From positions 1 to 20,030 of the IMG/VR virus record IMGVR_UViG_3300043427_000294: DNA of 20,030 nucleotides. One strand, 5' to 3'. The translations under genes were made by a program, and so were the position numbers. Of this stretch, positions 4,563 to 15,175 are shown one piece after another (positions within the stretch are counted from its first letter, which is position 1; each line of letters begins with the position of its first letter). The notes under the pieces were generated by a model, which saw only the letters and a list, made by a program, of their open reading frames with translations, did no database searches and was not told where the DNA came from. Source of the DNA: a virus.

Positions 4563-4576
4563 ATAAAAATACAATA

Positions 4577-4596
4577 GAGGGAGAATTAACTCCCTC
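4577..4596 (-). terminator. Hairpin after the major capsid gene, candidate weak intrinsic terminator
   Basis: A perfect 7-bp stem (GAGGGAG/CTCCCTC) closes a 6-nt loop 20 nt downstream of the capsid stop. On the minus strand it is followed by TATTGTATTTTTAT, an interrupted rather than solid T tract. It could reduce transcription past the abundant capsid gene or protect the 3' end of its mRNA. The next gene starts 15 nt beyond the stem, so some readthrough must occur. The hairpin is certain; efficient termination is not. Confidence 0.5.
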
Positions 4597-4616
4597 CATT
4601 ATATCATAACTATTTA

Positions 4617-5570
4617 CTAAGCACCTACGTTTTGTACTTTAGCATGTGCATCTGGGTTTTGAACCACTAATGCATATTCTGCTGTGAGTAACCATTTTGT
4701 GCTGTCACCAGTTTTAGCTAGTTCTTCTTTAGCCATTGGGCGTAATGAAGCTAAGCCAACATAACCTGGGTCTACGCATAAAACAGCTTGGTCACGCATG
4801 AAACGGTCAAGTTTCACAGTATGATTACCGAAGTCAGAAACGTAAACGTCTGCTGCGCCAGTAATTGTAGCTTGTGTTGTACCTTGAACGTTGTTGAACT
4901 TAGTAGCAATACCAGCAAAGCCTGAGAAACGAGCTTTGTTTGTAGCTGACATAAGGATAAGTGATGGCTCACCACCGTCTGTCCATGCTAATTGTAATGC
5001 TGATTTTAAGTCTGCTTCAATGAATGTTACAGAAGTACCATCTGTTGGTGATGCTACTGTGCCATTGCTGAAGCCAGGTGTTGTACCTGCTGTTGAACCT
5101 GTTGCTAATACTCGGTTAGTAATCCATGATTCTACACCTGCAGTTGAACGAGCTGTTGCTGGACCACCTGCTGATGATGCTTGGTTACGTACGATTGCAT
5201 ATTCCATGTCACGTTTAAGTTCTTTACCAGCTTTCATAAGTTGGTAAGCAACTTCAGACTTACGACCATACTTACGTACTACGTCATATGTGTTTGAAAT
5301 TTGAACTGTCTTACGTGAGATTTGTGTGTAGTTACCTAATACTGTTGTAGCAGGTAATGTTGCGAATGAAGCGTCATCACCTTCAACAGATGTGTTCGTA
5401 CCTGCTGCTGCAAGTGCGTCTGTTTGCCATTGATGGTATGTTTGACCTGCTGACATTCTTTTTGCTAATGAAAGCAATGGTGTATCTTCTGGAGAAATAT
5501 CAAAAATGATATCCTCAAATGATTCTGCTATACCTTTACCGGTATAACTATTGGTTGCTGAAACTGCCAT
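4617..5570 (-). CDS. Major capsid protein, SU10 type
   Basis: This 317-residue protein starts MAVSATNSYTGKGIAESFED. The segment DIIFDISPEDTPLLSLAKR (20-38), the following YHQWQTD (45-51) and a GNYTQISRKTVQISNTYD region (about 79-96) are characteristic of the DUF5309/SU10 major capsid family, which has an HK97-type fold. The C-terminal part carries a KLDRFMRDQAVLCVDP segment. An AAAGGAA ribosome site lies upstream of the ATG. The gene directly follows the acidic scaffold gene, the usual order, and is bracketed by terminator-like hairpins at 4577-4596 and upstream of the scaffold at 6613. Length and motif order fit the family. No sign of frameshift or decoration-domain fusion was found. Confidence 0.88.
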   Translation of the reverse strand: MAVSATNSYTGKGIAESFEDIIFDISPEDTPLLSLAKRMSAGQTYHQWQTDALAAAGTNTSVEGDDASFATLPATTVLGNYTQISRKTVQISNTYDVVRKYGRKSEVAYQLMKAGKELKRDMEYAIVRNQASSAGGPATARSTAGVESWITNRVLATGSTAGTTPGFSNGTVASPTDGTSVTFIEADLKSALQLAWTDGGEPSLILMSATNKARFSGFAGIATKFNNVQGTTQATITGAADVYVSDFGNHTVKLDRFMRDQAVLCVDPGYVGLASLRPMAKEELAKTGDSTKWLLTAEYALVVQNPDAHAKVQNVGA

Positions 5571-6612: not shown

Positions 6613-6636
6613 AAAAAAACCTACCGAAGTAGGCTT
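6613..6636 (-). terminator. Intrinsic terminator upstream of the scaffold gene
   Basis: On the minus strand the stem CCTAC-TTCG-GTAGG, extendable by A-T and G-T pairs to about 8 bp, is closed by a TTCG tetraloop and followed by seven consecutive T (6619-6613). This is a textbook Rho-independent terminator. It lies between the 90-aa gene stop and the scaffold start and leaves no room for an obvious promoter downstream of it, so scaffold and capsid transcription must read through it or start inside upstream genes. Confidence 0.82.
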
Positions 6637-6651
6637 TAAGTGGGCTTGTCC

Positions 6652-8930: not shown

Positions 8931-10187
8931 CTATACGATACTTCGGTTGTTATATATTATCTTCTCACCACCCCAAGACTCATTCTTCATTTGTTCTACA
9001 GATGTAGCCATATATCTAAATGCGTCTGCACCATGACTGTATTCATCATGTAAAGGTGCGCCTGGTTCATTGGTTGATGAGTTAATTGACCTCTTATAAT
9101 TCTTTAAACATTCTAATAGTCTTTGTGTAGACTTATCAAAATAGCATTTATGGAAGTGCATCCTAGCTATCTTAATACCAGCTTCTATACTTGATACTGG
9201 AACTATACGAACACTCCAGCCTTGCTTTCTCATAATGTCTTCTGCTGACAGACCTGACTTATAATCCCTAGACCTACCATCATGTGGTAAGAACATTGTA
9301 CCCCAATTATAGTTTAGTGACCTTATCTCAGATGAGAAACTGTCTAATGTTCTATGATTATCTTCTATGTATTTAATAATGCGTATATCAGAAACACCAC
9401 GTTGGCATAATATGATAGCCATAGAGTCGTTAAACCCTAAGTCAAACACTACATGAACCTTGAGCATTGGGTCATAAGGTACAGTAGTAATACGGTTATT
9501 CTCTTGTGCTTCTCTTATCTCGTTAGCATAGATAGCACCATCTACAGCAGCTTTACATTCACCTTCCCAAATGTTTGCATAGTCAGGGTTAGTCTTTTGA
9601 CTGTGTTGACGTTCTATTTCTAACACTTCAGGAAACCAAGGGTTGTCTTGGTAATTAACCTTAACGACTTTAGCGTTCTCTGGTGGCTCTACTACAAACC
9701 TTTGGTATGTATCGTCTGTATCTATGTTAGGGTTAAATGATACCCATATTTCTGAATTAGGTTTACGTATTGTAGGTATTAAAATATCCCACGACTTCTT
9801 TGATACTGTTTGTGCCTCTTCCACCCAGACAATATCACATCCTTCAAAAGACTTAATGGACTCAACAGTATTAGTAGCCAACCCAGTAAAACTGAACGTG
9901 CTACCGTTAAGACCACGTATCTCTGCTTCCAATACTTCATAGAAAGCTCCTAGACCTAAAGACTGTATTTGGTCATTAAGTAATGTATGTACTGACTGCT
10001 TAATAGACTTTTGTATTTCACGTGCGCATAAGACACGTGTTGGTTCATTAGCTGCTTTTATAAGCAATGCTCTTGCGAATGACCATGACTTACCTGAACC
10101 TCTACCACCGTATGCTACTTTGTAACGGTGTGGTTCAAATAAGAAGTCTAGTTTATTCGGAAACTTGGCTATCGTCTGGCTTGACAA
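8931..10187 (-). CDS. terL: Terminase large subunit, PBSX/XtmB-like
   Basis: This 418-residue DNA-packaging motor has an N-terminal ATPase with Walker A YGGRGSGKS at 26-34 and Walker B DIVWVEEAQ at 118-126, the second Glu acting as catalytic carboxylate. The SFNPN coupling motif is at 150-154. The C-terminal RNase-H-like nuclease shows FDLGFNDS at 248-255, PHDG at 301-304 and HGADAFRYM at 385-393, supplying the expected acidic residues. Length and motifs fit the Terminase_3 (PBSX) type. The start overlaps the TerS gene by 35 nt, and the portal gene follows 10 nt after its stop. All catalytic motifs are intact. Confidence 0.93.
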   Translation of the reverse strand: MSSQTIAKFPNKLDFLFEPHRYKVAYGGRGSGKSWSFARALLIKAANEPTRVLCAREIQKSIKQSVHTLLNDQIQSLGLGAFYEVLEAEIRGLNGSTFSFTGLATNTVESIKSFEGCDIVWVEEAQTVSKKSWDILIPTIRKPNSEIWVSFNPNIDTDDTYQRFVVEPPENAKVVKVNYQDNPWFPEVLEIERQHSQKTNPDYANIWEGECKAAVDGAIYANEIREAQENNRITTVPYDPMLKVHVVFDLGFNDSMAIILCQRGVSDIRIIKYIEDNHRTLDSFSSEIRSLNYNWGTMFLPHDGRSRDYKSGLSAEDIMRKQGWSVRIVPVSSIEAGIKIARMHFHKCYFDKSTQRLLECLKNYKRSINSSTNEPGAPLHDEYSHGADAFRYMATSVEQMKNESWGGEKIIYNNRSIV

Positions 10188-10518: not shown

Positions 10519-10674
10519 TTAGTACCCTTGTTTTTTTGTATAGGCATTTAAGGCATTTACTAATTCATCTGCCATTTTATTTTGAATATCATCTACTTTT
10601 TTATTGTTAGTAATCTTTTGTGCCTGTGTAGATTGCTTCTGATATGTTTGATTTGGATTGTTCAAGGGCTTCAC
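10519..10674 (-). CDS. 51-aa ORF overlapping the 3' end of the zeta-like gene (GTG start)
   Basis: A small reading frame starts at GTG 10672-10674, preceded by a perfect AAGGAG 8 nt upstream, and ends at TAA 10519-10521. It encodes 51 polar residues with Asn/Gln-rich MKPLNNPNQTYQKQSTQAQK at the start and a likely amphipathic helix (VDDIQNKMADELVNALNAY, 27-45) at the end. It lies in the +1 frame relative to the zeta-like gene and overlaps its last 68 nt. The strong ribosome site makes it a likely real gene rather than a frameshifted tail. No family is recognised. It could be a partner of the zeta-like protein or an unrelated virion component. Confidence 0.6.
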   Translation of the reverse strand: MKPLNNPNQTYQKQSTQAQKITNNKKVDDIQNKMADELVNALNAYTKKQGY

Positions 10675-11674
10675 TTAATTGTCTCCTTAATGCTTTTTCA
10701 TTTAATTTTGGCAAATCGCTTAACTCTATTCTTCTAGAGTTGCCTTTTCCTCTAGAATTGTCAATTGCTGAAATTTGTACGTTTGGGTTATCTTTATATT
10801 TAGAAGCTAATTCATCTATAGTTTTTCTAGAACCAACGTGTGTTTTTAAATGTTCTGATAATGGTACTGTTCTACCAGAACCAAAAGTTGCTTCTATACC
10901 TGAAGCTCTAGGTAAAGCTCCTTTTGTTAATGACTCTATTGGGTCACGATAAGTATAAAATATTCTTACATCACGACCTGCTTTTAATGCTTGTTGTATT
11001 TTATCATCTGCTGACTTAAATGTATTCATGTTTGTATCATAAATCATTTCAGCTTTATTAATTGTATCAGAAGCTGCTTGAGATGCTTGTTGTATTGCTT
11101 TTGATTTACCAGCTCCAGTTCCACCTGCTGTAAATACTACTGTACTATCATAACCTTTAGGTGTAGGTTGAGATAGTTTTTCTGCATATAAGTTCTTAAC
11201 AAATGTACTTGCTGGTTCATGCACTTGTGCAGATAACGTTCTATTTGCCTGATATTCAGGAAATAACTCTCTTGCAGCATCAGTATTTAATATTCTACCA
11301 CCTTTTGTTTCAGCATGGGGTAAATCTAAAGTATTATATTGTTGTTTAAGTTCTGGGTATTGTGTAATTAATCTATTGGTTGCAGACTGTTCTACATCTG
11401 ATTTACCTAACAAAGAACTATATTTTGGTCCTTGAGTAATTGCTTTGCTTAATAACCCAGATACAGGATTAACATTTAAAGCTGTATTCATCATATCCTG
11501 AGTAATGTTAACAGGTCTAGGCGTATTTATATCTTTTAATAAACCTTGTGTATCGCCACGTAATAAATATGATAATGGAGCATTACCTTGTTGAATATAA
11601 GTATTTAAAGCACGGTCTAATGGCGATAAACTATTTGGGTCTTGCTGACTTGCCCATGTGTTTAATAATGCCAT
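10607..11674 (-). CDS. Zeta-toxin-like P-loop kinase domain protein in the packaging module
   Basis: The protein has 355 residues. Residues 1-80 are polar, with no clear domain. From about 175 a P-loop NTPase begins with VVFTAGGTGAGKSKAIQ (179-195), a clean Walker A. Then follow MIYDTNMNTFKSADDKIQQA (210-229) and GRDVRIFYTYRDPIESL (233-249), the order expected in zeta-toxin kinases, where a D-containing loop and a post-helix beta strand line the substrate pocket. A later GRTVPLSEHLKTH (267-279) and ISAIDNSRGKG (301-311) recur in zeta-like domains of phage and plasmid polyvalent proteins. The family phosphorylates UDP-GlcNAc in characterised members; substrate and toxicity here are unproven. 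GGAG lies 8 nt upstream. It is cotranscribed with TerS/TerL, so the product is likely made late and could be packaged or act on envelope precursors. Confidence 0.68.
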   Translation of the reverse strand: MALLNTWASQQDPNSLSPLDRALNTYIQQGNAPLSYLLRGDTQGLLKDINTPRPVNITQDMMNTALNVNPVSGLLSKAITQGPKYSSLLGKSDVEQSATNRLITQYPELKQQYNTLDLPHAETKGGRILNTDAARELFPEYQANRTLSAQVHEPASTFVKNLYAEKLSQPTPKGYDSTVVFTAGGTGAGKSKAIQQASQAASDTINKAEMIYDTNMNTFKSADDKIQQALKAGRDVRIFYTYRDPIESLTKGALPRASGIEATFGSGRTVPLSEHLKTHVGSRKTIDELASKYKDNPNVQISAIDNSRGKGNSRRIELSDLPKLNEKALRRQLSEALEQSKSNISEAIYTGTKDY

Positions 11675-11675
11675 A

Positions 11676-12383
11676 TTATAACTCCGATTGTCGTTTGTTT
11701 CCCTTAAGTGGGTATATCATTCTTTGGTATGTTTCCCACCATTCTTGACTATAGTCTGTATTCTGATAGTCTTTAAAGCATGGTGTGCCTAATGTATGAT
11801 GCACTAACTTAGCATCTGGGTTGTATTCGTATTCTGTTTCTAGCCAGTTCCATGTTTCGTCTAGCTTACCTACTTGCTCTTCAGGATATTTGAGCCATTC
11901 AAACCTGTGTAGGTATTTACCTGTTTGCTCTTGAATAAACTTAGGTGTTAGCTGACGGTTTAACCAATGTGAACAATTCCATAACATAACACTTGACCAA
12001 TTCTTTTTAGGATAGTCTTCGTTCTTTGCACCTAGATACTTGATAGGATGCTTTGTTGTGTAGTTATGCTTTACGACTTTGACTGCTTCGTCATTATCAA
12101 AGTTCGCCAGTATCTCTGCAATGTCTGTGCGGCACGTCATATCGCCATCTACAAATAGTGCAATACCTTTAAAGTTGTTTAGATATGGCACTAAAAAGCG
12201 TGAGTAGATAAATGCGTTGCTACCGTCTTTATGTGTTTCTTCGTAGTCTTTTAAAGTATTTAATGCTAATGGTGTAAAACTTACCGGTATAGATGACTTT
12301 TCTATGATTGACTGGCAAAAGTTATGATAAGCCACAGGCTCAACCTTACCGTCATATCCTACGTATATATCTAATTTCAGCAT
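11676..12383 (-). CDS. Glycosyltransferase family 8-like protein
   Basis: This 235-residue GT-A-type enzyme starts LDIYVGYDGK, typical of the first strand binding the nucleotide sugar. SRFLVPYL (61-68) is followed by ALFVDGDM (75-82), which holds the Asp79-x-Asp81 metal-binding motif. KNWSSVMLWNCSHW lies in the acceptor-side half, and VHHTLGTPCF near the C-terminus carries the usual late His. It has no membrane segment. Characterised GT8 members add hexoses to LPS or glycogenin. It starts on a TAATG junction with the DUF6321-like gene and ends 1 nt before the zeta-like gene, and lies 7 kb from the other three glycosyltransferases. Its acceptor is unknown. Confidence 0.8.
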   Translation of the reverse strand: MLKLDIYVGYDGKVEPVAYHNFCQSIIEKSSIPVSFTPLALNTLKDYEETHKDGSNAFIYSRFLVPYLNNFKGIALFVDGDMTCRTDIAEILANFDNDEAVKVVKHNYTTKHPIKYLGAKNEDYPKKNWSSVMLWNCSHWLNRQLTPKFIQEQTGKYLHRFEWLKYPEEQVGKLDETWNWLETEYEYNPDAKLVHHTLGTPCFKDYQNTDYSQEWWETYQRMIYPLKGNKRQSEL

Positions 12384-12951: not shown

Positions 12952-13128
12952 TTATTTACCTTTCTTTTTTTTAGACATACCAGCTTCGCTAAGTGCAATA
13001 GCGATAGCTTGTTTAGGAGATTTTACTACTTTACCACCTTTACCTGAATGTAATGAACCTGTTTTAAATTCTTTCATCACTTTGCTGACTTTCGCCATCT
13101 TGCCCTTTTTCGTTGTTGGTTTCTTCAT
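12952..13128 (-). CDS. 58-aa basic protein, DUF6496-like
   Basis: The frame starts at ATG 13126-13128 with TAAGGA 6 nt upstream and ends at TAA 12952-12954. The core MAKVSKVMKEFKTGSLHSGK (11-30) followed by a SPKQAIAIALSEAG segment (37-50) is the signature of the DUF6496 family, small proteins found in phages and bacteria with no established function. It starts inside the end of the Zn-ribbon ORF (65-nt overlap) and leads the group of four small basic proteins. Its strong ribosome site makes it the first confidently translated gene after the leader terminator. Confidence 0.8.
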   Translation of the reverse strand: MKKPTTKKGKMAKVSKVMKEFKTGSLHSGKGGKVVKSPKQAIAIALSEAGMSKKKKGK

Positions 13129-13237
13129 AGCTTTTCCTTAACTTTATAAATCGGTGGTCGTATCTACAATCGTTACAAAGAGTATACTCGGTGAAGTCAA
13201 ATGGTTCACCACATTGTTCGCAAATAGATAGCTTCAT
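13064..13237 (-). CDS. Short Zn-ribbon-like ORF at the head of the late operon
   Basis: The ORF encodes 57 residues from ATG 13235-13237; a TTG at 13253-13255 would add six, but it falls inside the terminator stem. Residues 1-30 contain CEQCGEPFDF and CNDC, a CxxC-(about 13)-CxxC zinc-ribbon pattern, followed by a charged, likely disordered tail. No ribosome site precedes either start because the upstream bases are the terminator's T tract, so translation would be weak or would need an altered transcript end. It overlaps the DUF6496-like gene by 65 nt. The paired cysteines make chance less likely, but this is the least certain ORF of the late region. Confidence 0.5.
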   Translation of the reverse strand: MKLSICEQCGEPFDFTEYTLCNDCRYDHRFIKLRKSYEETNNEKGQDGESQQSDERI

Positions 13238-13239
13238 AT

Positions 13240-13320
13240 AAAAGAAAAAGCCCAACCACGGAGAGAGTGCAGTCAGGCTTTTGTAGAATTACGTTTCTTA
13301 CGGACAGGAGTTGTCCAACA
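13240..13320 (-). ncRNA. Predicted short leader RNA between promoter and terminator
   Basis: If transcription starts about 7 nt after the -10 box (near 13320) and stops in the T tract near 13245-13240, the product is a 75-80 nt RNA. It has two hairpins: GGACA-ACTCC-TGTCC at 13316-13302 and the long terminator stem. No ORF with a ribosome site lies inside. The arrangement resembles the short terminated pR' transcript of lambdoid phages. Existence of the RNA is inference from promoter and terminator positions. Confidence 0.45.
13245..13283 (-). terminator. Leader terminator (tR'-like) before the late operon
   Basis: On the minus strand an 11-bp stem, AAAAGCCTGAC paired with GTTGGGCTTTT including two G-T wobbles, encloses a further CAC/GTG stem with a TCTCTCC loop. 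It is followed by CTTTTTCTTTT. This is a strong intrinsic-terminator shape. It sits about 40-75 nt downstream of the promoter at 13327-13356 and before the first late genes. The flanking A tract means it could also work, less well, on the plus strand. Confidence 0.75.
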
Positions 13321-13326
13321 GGCGTT

Positions 13327-13356
13327 ATTATAGCATACTTTGCTATTTCTGTTCAA
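13327..13356 (-). promoter_or_regulatory. Sigma70-type late promoter candidate (pR'-like)
   Basis: On the minus strand a -35 box TTGAAC (13356-13351) is separated by 18 nt from a perfect -10 box TATAAT (13332-13327), preceded by TG one base away, an extended -10 element. The start site would be near 13320. It lies just after the stop of the Q-like gene and reads through a short leader into the late terminator. It is the best promoter match seen in the window. Confidence 0.68.
13330..13346 (-). promoter_or_regulatory. Inverted repeat inside the late promoter, possible Q-binding element
   Basis: ATAGCA-aagta-TGCTAT is a perfect 6-bp inverted repeat with a 5-nt gap that occupies most of the spacer and overlaps the first bases of the -10 box. 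In lambda the Q-binding element lies between -35 and -10, so this is a reasonable candidate site for the Q-like protein or another regulator. A repeat this short in AT-rich DNA could be chance. Confidence 0.35.
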
Positions 13357-13361
13357 CAAGT

Positions 13362-13691
13362 TTATGCGTTTATCCGTCTTCCTGCAATTACCAAGAGATT
13401 ATCGTATGCCATGTCTAATTGCCATGGGTAAGCTAGTGGTGGTTTAGCACCTAAGTATTTAGCATAGATAGCGTCTTGTTGTCCTTGTTCTAGGCTATGT
13501 ATGATAGCGTGTATAGTGCGTATGTTACTCATGTCTTGAGCTGAACACATTTCTTCAAAGACCTCTGAGGTTGACTCACCACCTGATGACATACCTATGC
13601 TTTTAGATGGATAACCTAGTTTGTGATTATCCCAATCCATCCACCTACCCCAATCCTCAAGGATAGATAATAAGCGTTCCATACTAATCAT
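13362..13691 (-). CDS. Phage antitermination protein Q-like
   Basis: This 109-residue protein has LLSILEDWGRWMD (7-19) then KLGYPSKS (24-31), matching the LExWGRW...GYPS opening of Q-type antitermination proteins. A helical segment follows (IRTIHAIIHSLEQGQQDAIYAKYLG, about 57-81) and an end AYDNLLVIAGRRI (95-107), reminiscent of their HTH-containing C-terminal half. Length is close to the shorter Q family members. It is the last gene of the replication operon and its stop lies just 5 nt before the -35 box of the late promoter, the same order as Q-pR' in lambdoid phages. It would bind the promoter-proximal DNA and RNA polymerase to allow readthrough of the leader terminator. The family call is from motif memory plus context; a small sigma-like or ArpU-like regulator is the main alternative. 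Confidence 0.62.
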   Translation of the reverse strand: MISMERLLSILEDWGRWMDWDNHKLGYPSKSIGMSSGGESTSEVFEEMCSAQDMSNIRTIHAIIHSLEQGQQDAIYAKYLGAKPPLAYPWQLDMAYDNLLVIAGRRINA

Positions 13692-14345: not shown

Positions 14346-14538
14346 CAAACTGCTCACTACTAGGCTTAGATGTGCCTTCGTATAATCTGTCTAACTCACC
14401 TGTTGACTTGTTAAGTTCATATTCTATTAGATGCGGTGATGTATAGGCATCTTTCTTTTTCTTGCCGAATATCTTATCCCAGTTATCTTCAAACGTAGGT
14501 CTATCTGTAAACGGTCTTGGTGCGCTTCCTTTTCCCAT
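14335..14538 (-). CDS. Small phage protein, function unknown
   Basis: The 67 residues begin MGKGSAPRPFTDRPTFEDNW and continue DKIFGKKKKDA. The MGKGSAPRPF...W..IFG opening is a recurrent pattern in small phage proteins next to recombination genes, with no known function. The remainder is polar and probably partly disordered. It overlaps the downstream nuclease-like gene by 11 nt and touches the upstream DUF1364-like gene by 1 nt, so it belongs to the same coupled operon. Confidence 0.68.
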   Translation of the reverse strand: MGKGSAPRPFTDRPTFEDNWDKIFGKKKKDAYTSPHLIEYELNKSTGELDRLYEGTSKPSSEQFDGE

Positions 14539-14819
14539 TATATTATTCCTATCATTTCATGTTCCCAAAGATATTGCATTGTAGTAACGTAAGCTCTATT
14601 CCACATATCACGTCTTTCTTCTTTTGTTAAATCTTTACCCATGTCTAGTGTGTAATGGCACTCATAACATAATGCAGCACATAACGCATCTGATACTTTG
14701 ATACCCATTCCTTTGCCTTCATTTCTATGTGCAGCACAAACTGTTTCAGACATGATACCACAATGTTGACAAGGTAGCTGTCTTAAAAGTTGAGTTAGTT
14801 TTTGATTACGATATATCAC
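14538..14819 (-). CDS. DUF1364-like (NinG-type) zinc-binding nuclease
   Basis: The product is 93 residues from GTG 14817-14819, which makes a TAGTG junction with the NinB-like gene. An ATG at 14853-14855 would add a low-complexity Gly/Leu stretch and a 37-nt overlap, so the GTG is preferred. Cys17 and Cys20 (PCQHCG), His31 (AAHRN), a KGMGIKVSD segment and Cys51-x-x-Cys54-His55 followed by TLD form the HNH/zinc nuclease pattern of DUF1364. That family travels with ninB in lambdoid recombination regions. It likely nicks recombination intermediates; the exact substrate is not known. Confidence 0.72.
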   Translation of the reverse strand: MIYRNQKLTQLLRQLPCQHCGIMSETVCAAHRNEGKGMGIKVSDALCAALCYECHYTLDMGKDLTKEERRDMWNRAYVTTMQYLWEHEMIGII

Positions 14820-15175
14820 TAAAAGTCCCAACCCCAACCCATAGTCTGCGCCCATACTTCTATCTGTTGCTGGTATTCTGTCATCTCACTTGTGGTTAAT
14901 TTAGTTGTTGACTTTATAAGCTCTACAGGCATACCTGCTATTTCAGTTTGGTATCGTAAGAATTTATATCCCATGAGTTCGTGTATCTTGTCTTTTTCTA
15001 TGCCTAAATGGTTACCTATGCTTGTATACAATTCCCATAATCTCTCGTTCTGCTGTAAACTCCTGTTAAGTTTTGCGTCTGTTACTGTAACACGCCACCG
15101 TTTAGTAAAGTCAAGAGATTTTAATTTCTCGTACAACATGGGTAGGTTTTGCTGATTTAATGTCCACTTTATCAT
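14819..15175 (-). CDS. ninB: NinB-family recombination protein
   Basis: This 118-residue protein has length near that of lambda NinB (Orf). The core NRSLQQNERLWELYTSIGNH (37-56) followed by HELMGYKFL (65-73), and the C-terminal TTKLTTSEMTEYQQQIE region (about 90-106), match the family signature. NinB binds single-stranded DNA and SSB and can substitute for RecFOR functions. The gene precedes a DUF1364-like nuclease as in lambdoid ninR-type regions. A GGA element lies 7 nt before its start, inside the end of the 57-aa ORF. Confidence 0.85.
   Translation of the reverse strand: MIKWTLNQQNLPMLYEKLKSLDFTKRWRVTVTDAKLNRSLQQNERLWELYTSIGNHLGIEKDKIHELMGYKFLRYQTEIAGMPVELIKSTTKLTTSEMTEYQQQIEVWAQTMGWGWDF

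Follow-up and report, generated by a model that had tools for sequence, protein, structure and literature searches.

A Q-like gene, promoter and leader terminator as a putative antitermination late switch in aquatic phages

In the window, by which we mean the whole 20,030-nt stretch of viral DNA analysed, the gene for a 109-residue Q-like protein lies on the minus strand between two blocks of genes that read in the same direction (Table 1). It is preceded by replication genes, by genes of the NinB-like and HNH/YbcO-like types and by three small genes. After it, the late genes (terminase, portal, scaffold, capsid and others) run from 13237 to 346, which bears out the preliminary description in placing the whole late operon beyond the terminator and in the same direction. 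No ribosome-binding site is visible before the first late-side ORF (13219-13245). The start of the late operon encodes a glycosyltransferase-family-8-like protein (11676-12383, just under the cut-off), and a Zeta-toxin-like protein with a kinase fold (10607-11674; PF06414, E 6e-14) is encoded upstream of the terminase genes. For the capsid protein (4617-5570), the nearest solved structure is 9ny2 (E 1e-50), with a weaker match to 7z45 (E 5e-30, residues 8-132), which we take to be SU10. The capsid had been called SU10-like, and the SU10-type structure does match, but 9ny2 is closer and the label is therefore not specific. Among deposited phages, the nearest capsid proteins are those of spring-water phages, Venkman and Pelagibacter phage HTVC106P.

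Table 1. Positions of the Q-like gene, its neighbours and the predicted signals in the window
Feature	Position	Strand	Evidence or remark
NinB/Orf-like gene (lambda nin-region feature), upstream of Q	14819..15175	minus	PHROG_72 E 3e-19; PF05772 23.7 bits (cut-off 23.8)
HNH/YbcO-like nuclease gene, nin-like region	14538..14855	minus	PHROG_131 E 5e-25; PF07102 E 0.0016, below cut-off
Q-like antiterminator gene, 109 aa	13362..13691	minus	PF06530, PHROG_79, Sigma70_r4_2, AF2 model
-35 element TTGAAC	13351..13356	minus	TTG kept in relatives
Extended -10 element TGCTATAAT (TGC before TATAAT)	13327..13335	minus	TG in 31/32 distinct relatives
Conserved initial-transcribed element GTTGGACAACTCCTGTCCG, candidate loading site, 5-bp RNA hairpin	13301..13319	minus	
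Candidate -10-like hexamer AAACGT (putative sigma-dependent pause), weak	13291..13296	minus	
Intrinsic terminator, 14-bp stem, 9-nt loop ACTCTCTCC (13260-13268), followed by U-rich tract	13246..13282	minus	Fold and conservation
First late-side ORF, ATG at 13237 just past the U-tract	13064..13237	minus	Weak zinc-ribbon matches
Hairpin with T-run in late operon, AAAGCCTACTTCGGTAGGTTTTT	6615..6638	minus	-9.2 kcal/mol
Second terminator-like hairpin, past the major capsid gene, T-rich stretch after	4570..4604	minus	-20.4 kcal/mol

A compact promoter-leader-terminator module occupies the interval between the Q-like gene and the late genes. The Q-like ORF stops at 13362, only 5 nt (ACTTG) separate the stop from the -35 element, and a spacer of 18 nt leads to the -10 hexamer TATAAT at 13332-13327; these coordinates confirm the earlier reading of a Q-like gene that ends directly before a TTGAAC-N18-TATAAT promoter with an extended -10. 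The sequences used for comparison, the 32 distinct relatives among them, were chosen by an exact TATAAT, so the invariance of that hexamer among them is no evidence. A weight-matrix scan ranked this promoter as the strongest on the minus strand within the window; it found no better minus-strand promoter within the late operon, where a weaker promoter-like site occurs at 9115. Transcription likely starts at G 13319 or T 13320, the start site and the register numbers used below being assigned by rule. From there to the end of the U-tract (~13242), the predicted leader RNA measures about 75-78 nt, in keeping with the 75-80 nt to a strong intrinsic terminator described previously. The terminator reads AAAAGCCTGACTGC-ACTCTCTCC-GTGGTTGGGCTTTT (13282-13246), and the folding energy of the leader is -25.1 kcal/mol compared with -15.3 kcal/mol for shuffled sequences (z -3.45). 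With a score of 11.1, the promoter and its close terminator form the best such pair of the window (runner-up 8.7). The terminator scan was limited to loops of 3-8 nt, and a terminator with a 9-nt loop therefore escapes it.

A search with Q-family profiles, as had been proposed for the 109-residue protein, ranked PF06530 (Phage_antitermQ), given the name 21Q family in PMC7171158, as the best family (E 8.5e-5), yet the score of 22.9 bits lies under the curated cut-off of 26 bits; the control protein quuD scored 179 bits, a relative in G001 25.4 bits and the other relatives lower. The match to PHROG_79 ('Q-like') was weak (E 0.016), and a second weak family was Sigma70_r4_2 (sigma-70 region 4), with weak matches in six of 14 relatives. 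The second ATG of the gene (13682), which lines up with the relatives, is a possible start. In the AF2 model (pLDDT 80.7), the protein is built of five helices (residues 4-25, 41-48, 51-66, 69-80 and 88-107), of which the first is long, the loop at 22-39 is of low confidence, and the modelled C-terminal half is sigma-region-4-like or helix-turn-helix-like. When the window family was compared by hhalign with a profile of nine PF06530 Q proteins, quuD and ST64T Q among them, the alignment reached 40% probability (pairwise E 3e-4, 58 columns) and ran from helix 1 through the loop into the helix after it. Foldseek matched the model to none of the Q structures in the PDB; sigma-region-4 proteins appeared only among its weak viral matches. 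Searching by sequence, no solved structure was matched. Because of the score below the cut-off, the 40% profile probability and the lack of a Q structure among the Foldseek matches in the PDB, we regard the protein as a sister or remote member of PF06530, homology to 21Q being not proven by sequence and fold.

The arrangement is widely kept. A protein scan of viral contigs yielded 193 relatives, and 80 of these were kept for counting the module, which directly follows the Q stop in 66. In another ten, a cassette labelled methyltransferase-like from its reading frame by eye follows Q, and the module comes next, still last before the late operon; three contigs end before the module is complete, and one (L054) is rearranged past the promoter. 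The cassette contigs (L019, L027, L028, L033, L056, L057, L060, L068, L072 and L079) carry a repeat of the Q 3' end before the promoter (GGATAAACGCATAA), a pattern that suggests recombination at a short stretch of common sequence. A second clade comprises 80 relatives and includes ctXG6705 (MW202481), whose Q protein is 57% identical and carries a Q annotation. Where the contig continues, clade 2 has Q, a promoter with TTGACA and TATAAT, a leader, a different terminator and a late gene, which in ctXG6705 corresponds to the DUF6496 gene of the window. The clade-2 terminators are unrelated in sequence or freely replaced, and a few contigs (L225, L234) have two in tandem. In EBPR podovirus 1, gp41 (about 35% identical) is followed by TTGACA-N17-CAGAAT, a leader, a terminator and TerS. 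Across the two clades, about 150 contigs keep the lambdoid Q-pR'-tR' order that had been pointed out for the window, with the late operon behind it, and so does EBPR podovirus 1. That the plan is kept while the terminator sequences are exchanged is as expected of a gate for which being shut by default is enough. Relatives occur in only three deposited phage records, and one scan of bacterial genomes found none.

Within the window's clade, diversity across 32 distinct leaders is zero in the base and loop of the terminator, compared with 0.32 at fourfold-degenerate sites of Q. An ordinary terminator would not need invariance of the loop ACTCTCTCC. A similar stretch, ACTCTCCGTA, was read from the alignments in the clade-2 leader outside any terminator. 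Pairing of the loop with the hairpin near 4571 was within chance, and a search of the leader against Rfam gave no match. A leader peptide was also considered, since a short TTG...TAA frame can be seen by eye in the window, but it was rejected because the clade-2 frame meets a stop after two codons.

Conservation is strong just downstream of the start. The clade-2 counterpart of GTTGGACAACTCCTGTCCG is GTTGGGATAGTCTCGCCCA and that of EBPR podovirus 1 is GTCGGGGCAGAGGTGCGCCCA, all located 6-7 nt past the -10 element. Among 47 distinct clade-2 sequences, diversity in the spacer (-30 to -19) is 0.57 compared with 0.45 at fourfold sites, and it amounts to only 0.12 from +1 to +19 and 0.09 from +23 to +30. 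Besides a slight preference for A/T from -24 to -22, the clade-2 spacer holds little information, and no conserved repeat or Q-binding element (QBE) of the lambda or 21 style was seen between -35 and -10, where a degenerate or lineage-specific QBE may nevertheless lie. Past the start, clade 2 has a -10-like hexamer at +18..+23 (CATACT, CATAAT or CACAAT), in which A2 and T6 are present in 47 of 47 sequences and the bases between them vary. The corresponding hexamer of the window's clade, [AT]AACGT at +24..+29, has A2 and T6 invariant in 32 distinct leaders and is a poor match to TATAAT. In the same clade, hairpin 1 of the leader folds with a mean of -5.6 kcal/mol compared with -2.9 kcal/mol for 100 shuffles, and one of its pairs shows A-U to G-C changes. 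In clade 2 this hairpin is no better than shuffles, and covariation in the leader overall is not above shuffles. Hairpin 1 was therefore rejected as an RNA structure conserved in both clades.

Published work on lambda and 21 describes two requirements, a QBE in the -35/-10 interval and a -10-like pause element that lies just past the start. A tentative reading of the present signals, which we hold with rather less than even confidence, is that the element from +1 to +19 (GTTGG..., ending ...YGYCC) is read by the protein or by the held polymerase and is followed by a -10-like pause hexamer near +18 or +24. The loading site would then have moved out of the spacer, and the polymerase would be held some 15 nt farther along than it is in lambda or 21. 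We estimate that the second QBE half-site of 21 ends about 12 nt before its -10-like element; by analogy with this spacing, GTTGG would stand where a Q site is expected for the pause element at +18.

The module's parts and their order are conserved and tied to the late operon, and the best explanation, which we consider probable from the sequence evidence, is a late switch of the Q antitermination type; promoter activity, pausing, loading and antitermination are what we infer from that arrangement. That the module works like a Q-like late switch is supported by the conserved order, the NinB- and YbcO-like neighbours, the PF06530 match and the sigma-region-4-like half of the protein. Early in infection, a strong promoter of the host sigma-70 type would fire and the leader RNA of ~77 nt would stop at the terminator, so that the late operon would at first be silent. 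Expression of the early operon (replication genes, nin-like genes and Q) would then build up enough Q-like protein, which would load onto RNA polymerase held a short distance past the start and render it terminator-resistant. Polymerase modified in this way would pass the leader terminator as well as the internal hairpins near 6616 and 4571, and transcribe the 13-kb late operon. The conserved leader bases are the best candidates for the holding and loading signals. Counting against such a switch are the PF06530 score below the cut-off, the 40% profile probability, the lack of a Q structure among the Foldseek matches in the PDB, the lack of a conserved QBE in the spacer and the weakness of the window's -10-like hexamer. 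A further point against it is the OM43 phage Venkman (EXVC282S), whose gp37, an 'antitermination-like protein' about 50% identical to the window protein, lies near the end of the early operon and has no recognisable promoter-leader-terminator module beside it, before the late genes or elsewhere in the genome; the late genes of Venkman are on the other strand, unlike those of the window.

Two other explanations deserve consideration. Like HK022 put, the leader could be an antiterminator RNA that acts in cis, or it could be a structured regulatory RNA of another kind, with hairpin 1 or the conserved terminator loop acting on the polymerase or on another RNA and the protein serving as a helper or being unrelated. 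The better-than-shuffled folding of hairpin 1 in the window's clade, its A-U to G-C changes and the loop invariance, dispensable in an ordinary terminator, are in its favour, but the shuffle-level folding in clade 2, the covariation at shuffle level, the lack of an Rfam match and the free replacement of clade-2 terminators speak against it, as does the Q gene close upstream of the module in both clades, and we consider an RNA-based mechanism unlikely. The module could also be an ordinary operon boundary. Early transcription would then finish at the terminator, the promoter would yield either a short RNA or late mRNA in leaky amounts, the late genes would rely on leakage or another promoter, and the 109-residue protein would be a DNA-binding repressor or activator of the conventional kind. 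Its modelled helix-turn-helix-like half could indeed bind DNA, and the late operon does contain a weaker promoter-like site. However, a promoter that fires into a terminator fewer than 100 nt ahead, and is kept in three lineages with different terminators, makes sense mainly as a gate, and conservation of the initial transcribed region goes further than sigma would require to initiate; a plain boundary is accordingly improbable in our judgement.

The order and logic of the Q-type switch are those of Q and pR' in lambda, where a pause element is likewise expected in the initial transcribed region and the leader to tR' is longer than in the window. Lambda Q belongs to a different protein family, PF03589 (PMC7171158). 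Another counterpart is provided by the 21-type phages (21, ST64T, HK639 and Pm34; PDB 6jnx and 6p18), in which Q follows nin-like genes as it does here; quuD of the E. coli prophage DLP12 is likewise placed after NinB- and YbcO-like genes. In 21-type phages the promoter overlaps or adjoins Q and the terminator lies within about 60-100 nt, the same compact layout as in the window. ST64T, with a Q protein that matches the 21Q structures at E about 1e-91, has a promoter-like sequence overlapping the end of Q and a terminator-like hairpin within about 60 nt, and in HK639 the annotated terminator lies 66-90 nt after Q. As is predicted for the window protein, 21Q is a small protein with a sigma-region-4-like helix-turn-helix (Shi 2019, PMC6606751), and 21Q is further described as having a first helix as well as a part that forms a ring (PMC6606751); the model of the window protein resembles this published helix plan, and the similarity between the two sequences is remote (22.9 bits, profile probability 40%). 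Outside phages, the antiterminator AlpA of Pseudomonas aeruginosa, which serves a bacterial programmed-death operon, also combines a helix-turn-helix protein, a promoter-proximal pause element and an intrinsic terminator downstream; one loading site suffices for AlpA, whose binding element is situated in the -35/-10 interval (PMC9371919).

The plan and compact layout are thus already known from 21-type phages, while what is new is the lineage, the extent of its spread among aquatic phages and the evidence for conserved cis signals downstream of the start. These findings would add aquatic phages, scarce in isolate collections and with head genes unlike those of lambda, to the range of Q-type processive antitermination. 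Phage 21 has a direct-repeat TGAGCA QBE between -35 and -10, whereas none was seen in the window and +1 to +30 is conserved instead. Compared with lambda and 21, the conserved signals likely reside in the first 30 transcribed bases rather than in the -35/-10 spacer. If the loading site does lie in the transcribed leader, the pause and loading signals would be separated from the promoter spacer, and these phages would offer a natural test of the geometry that Q proteins need.
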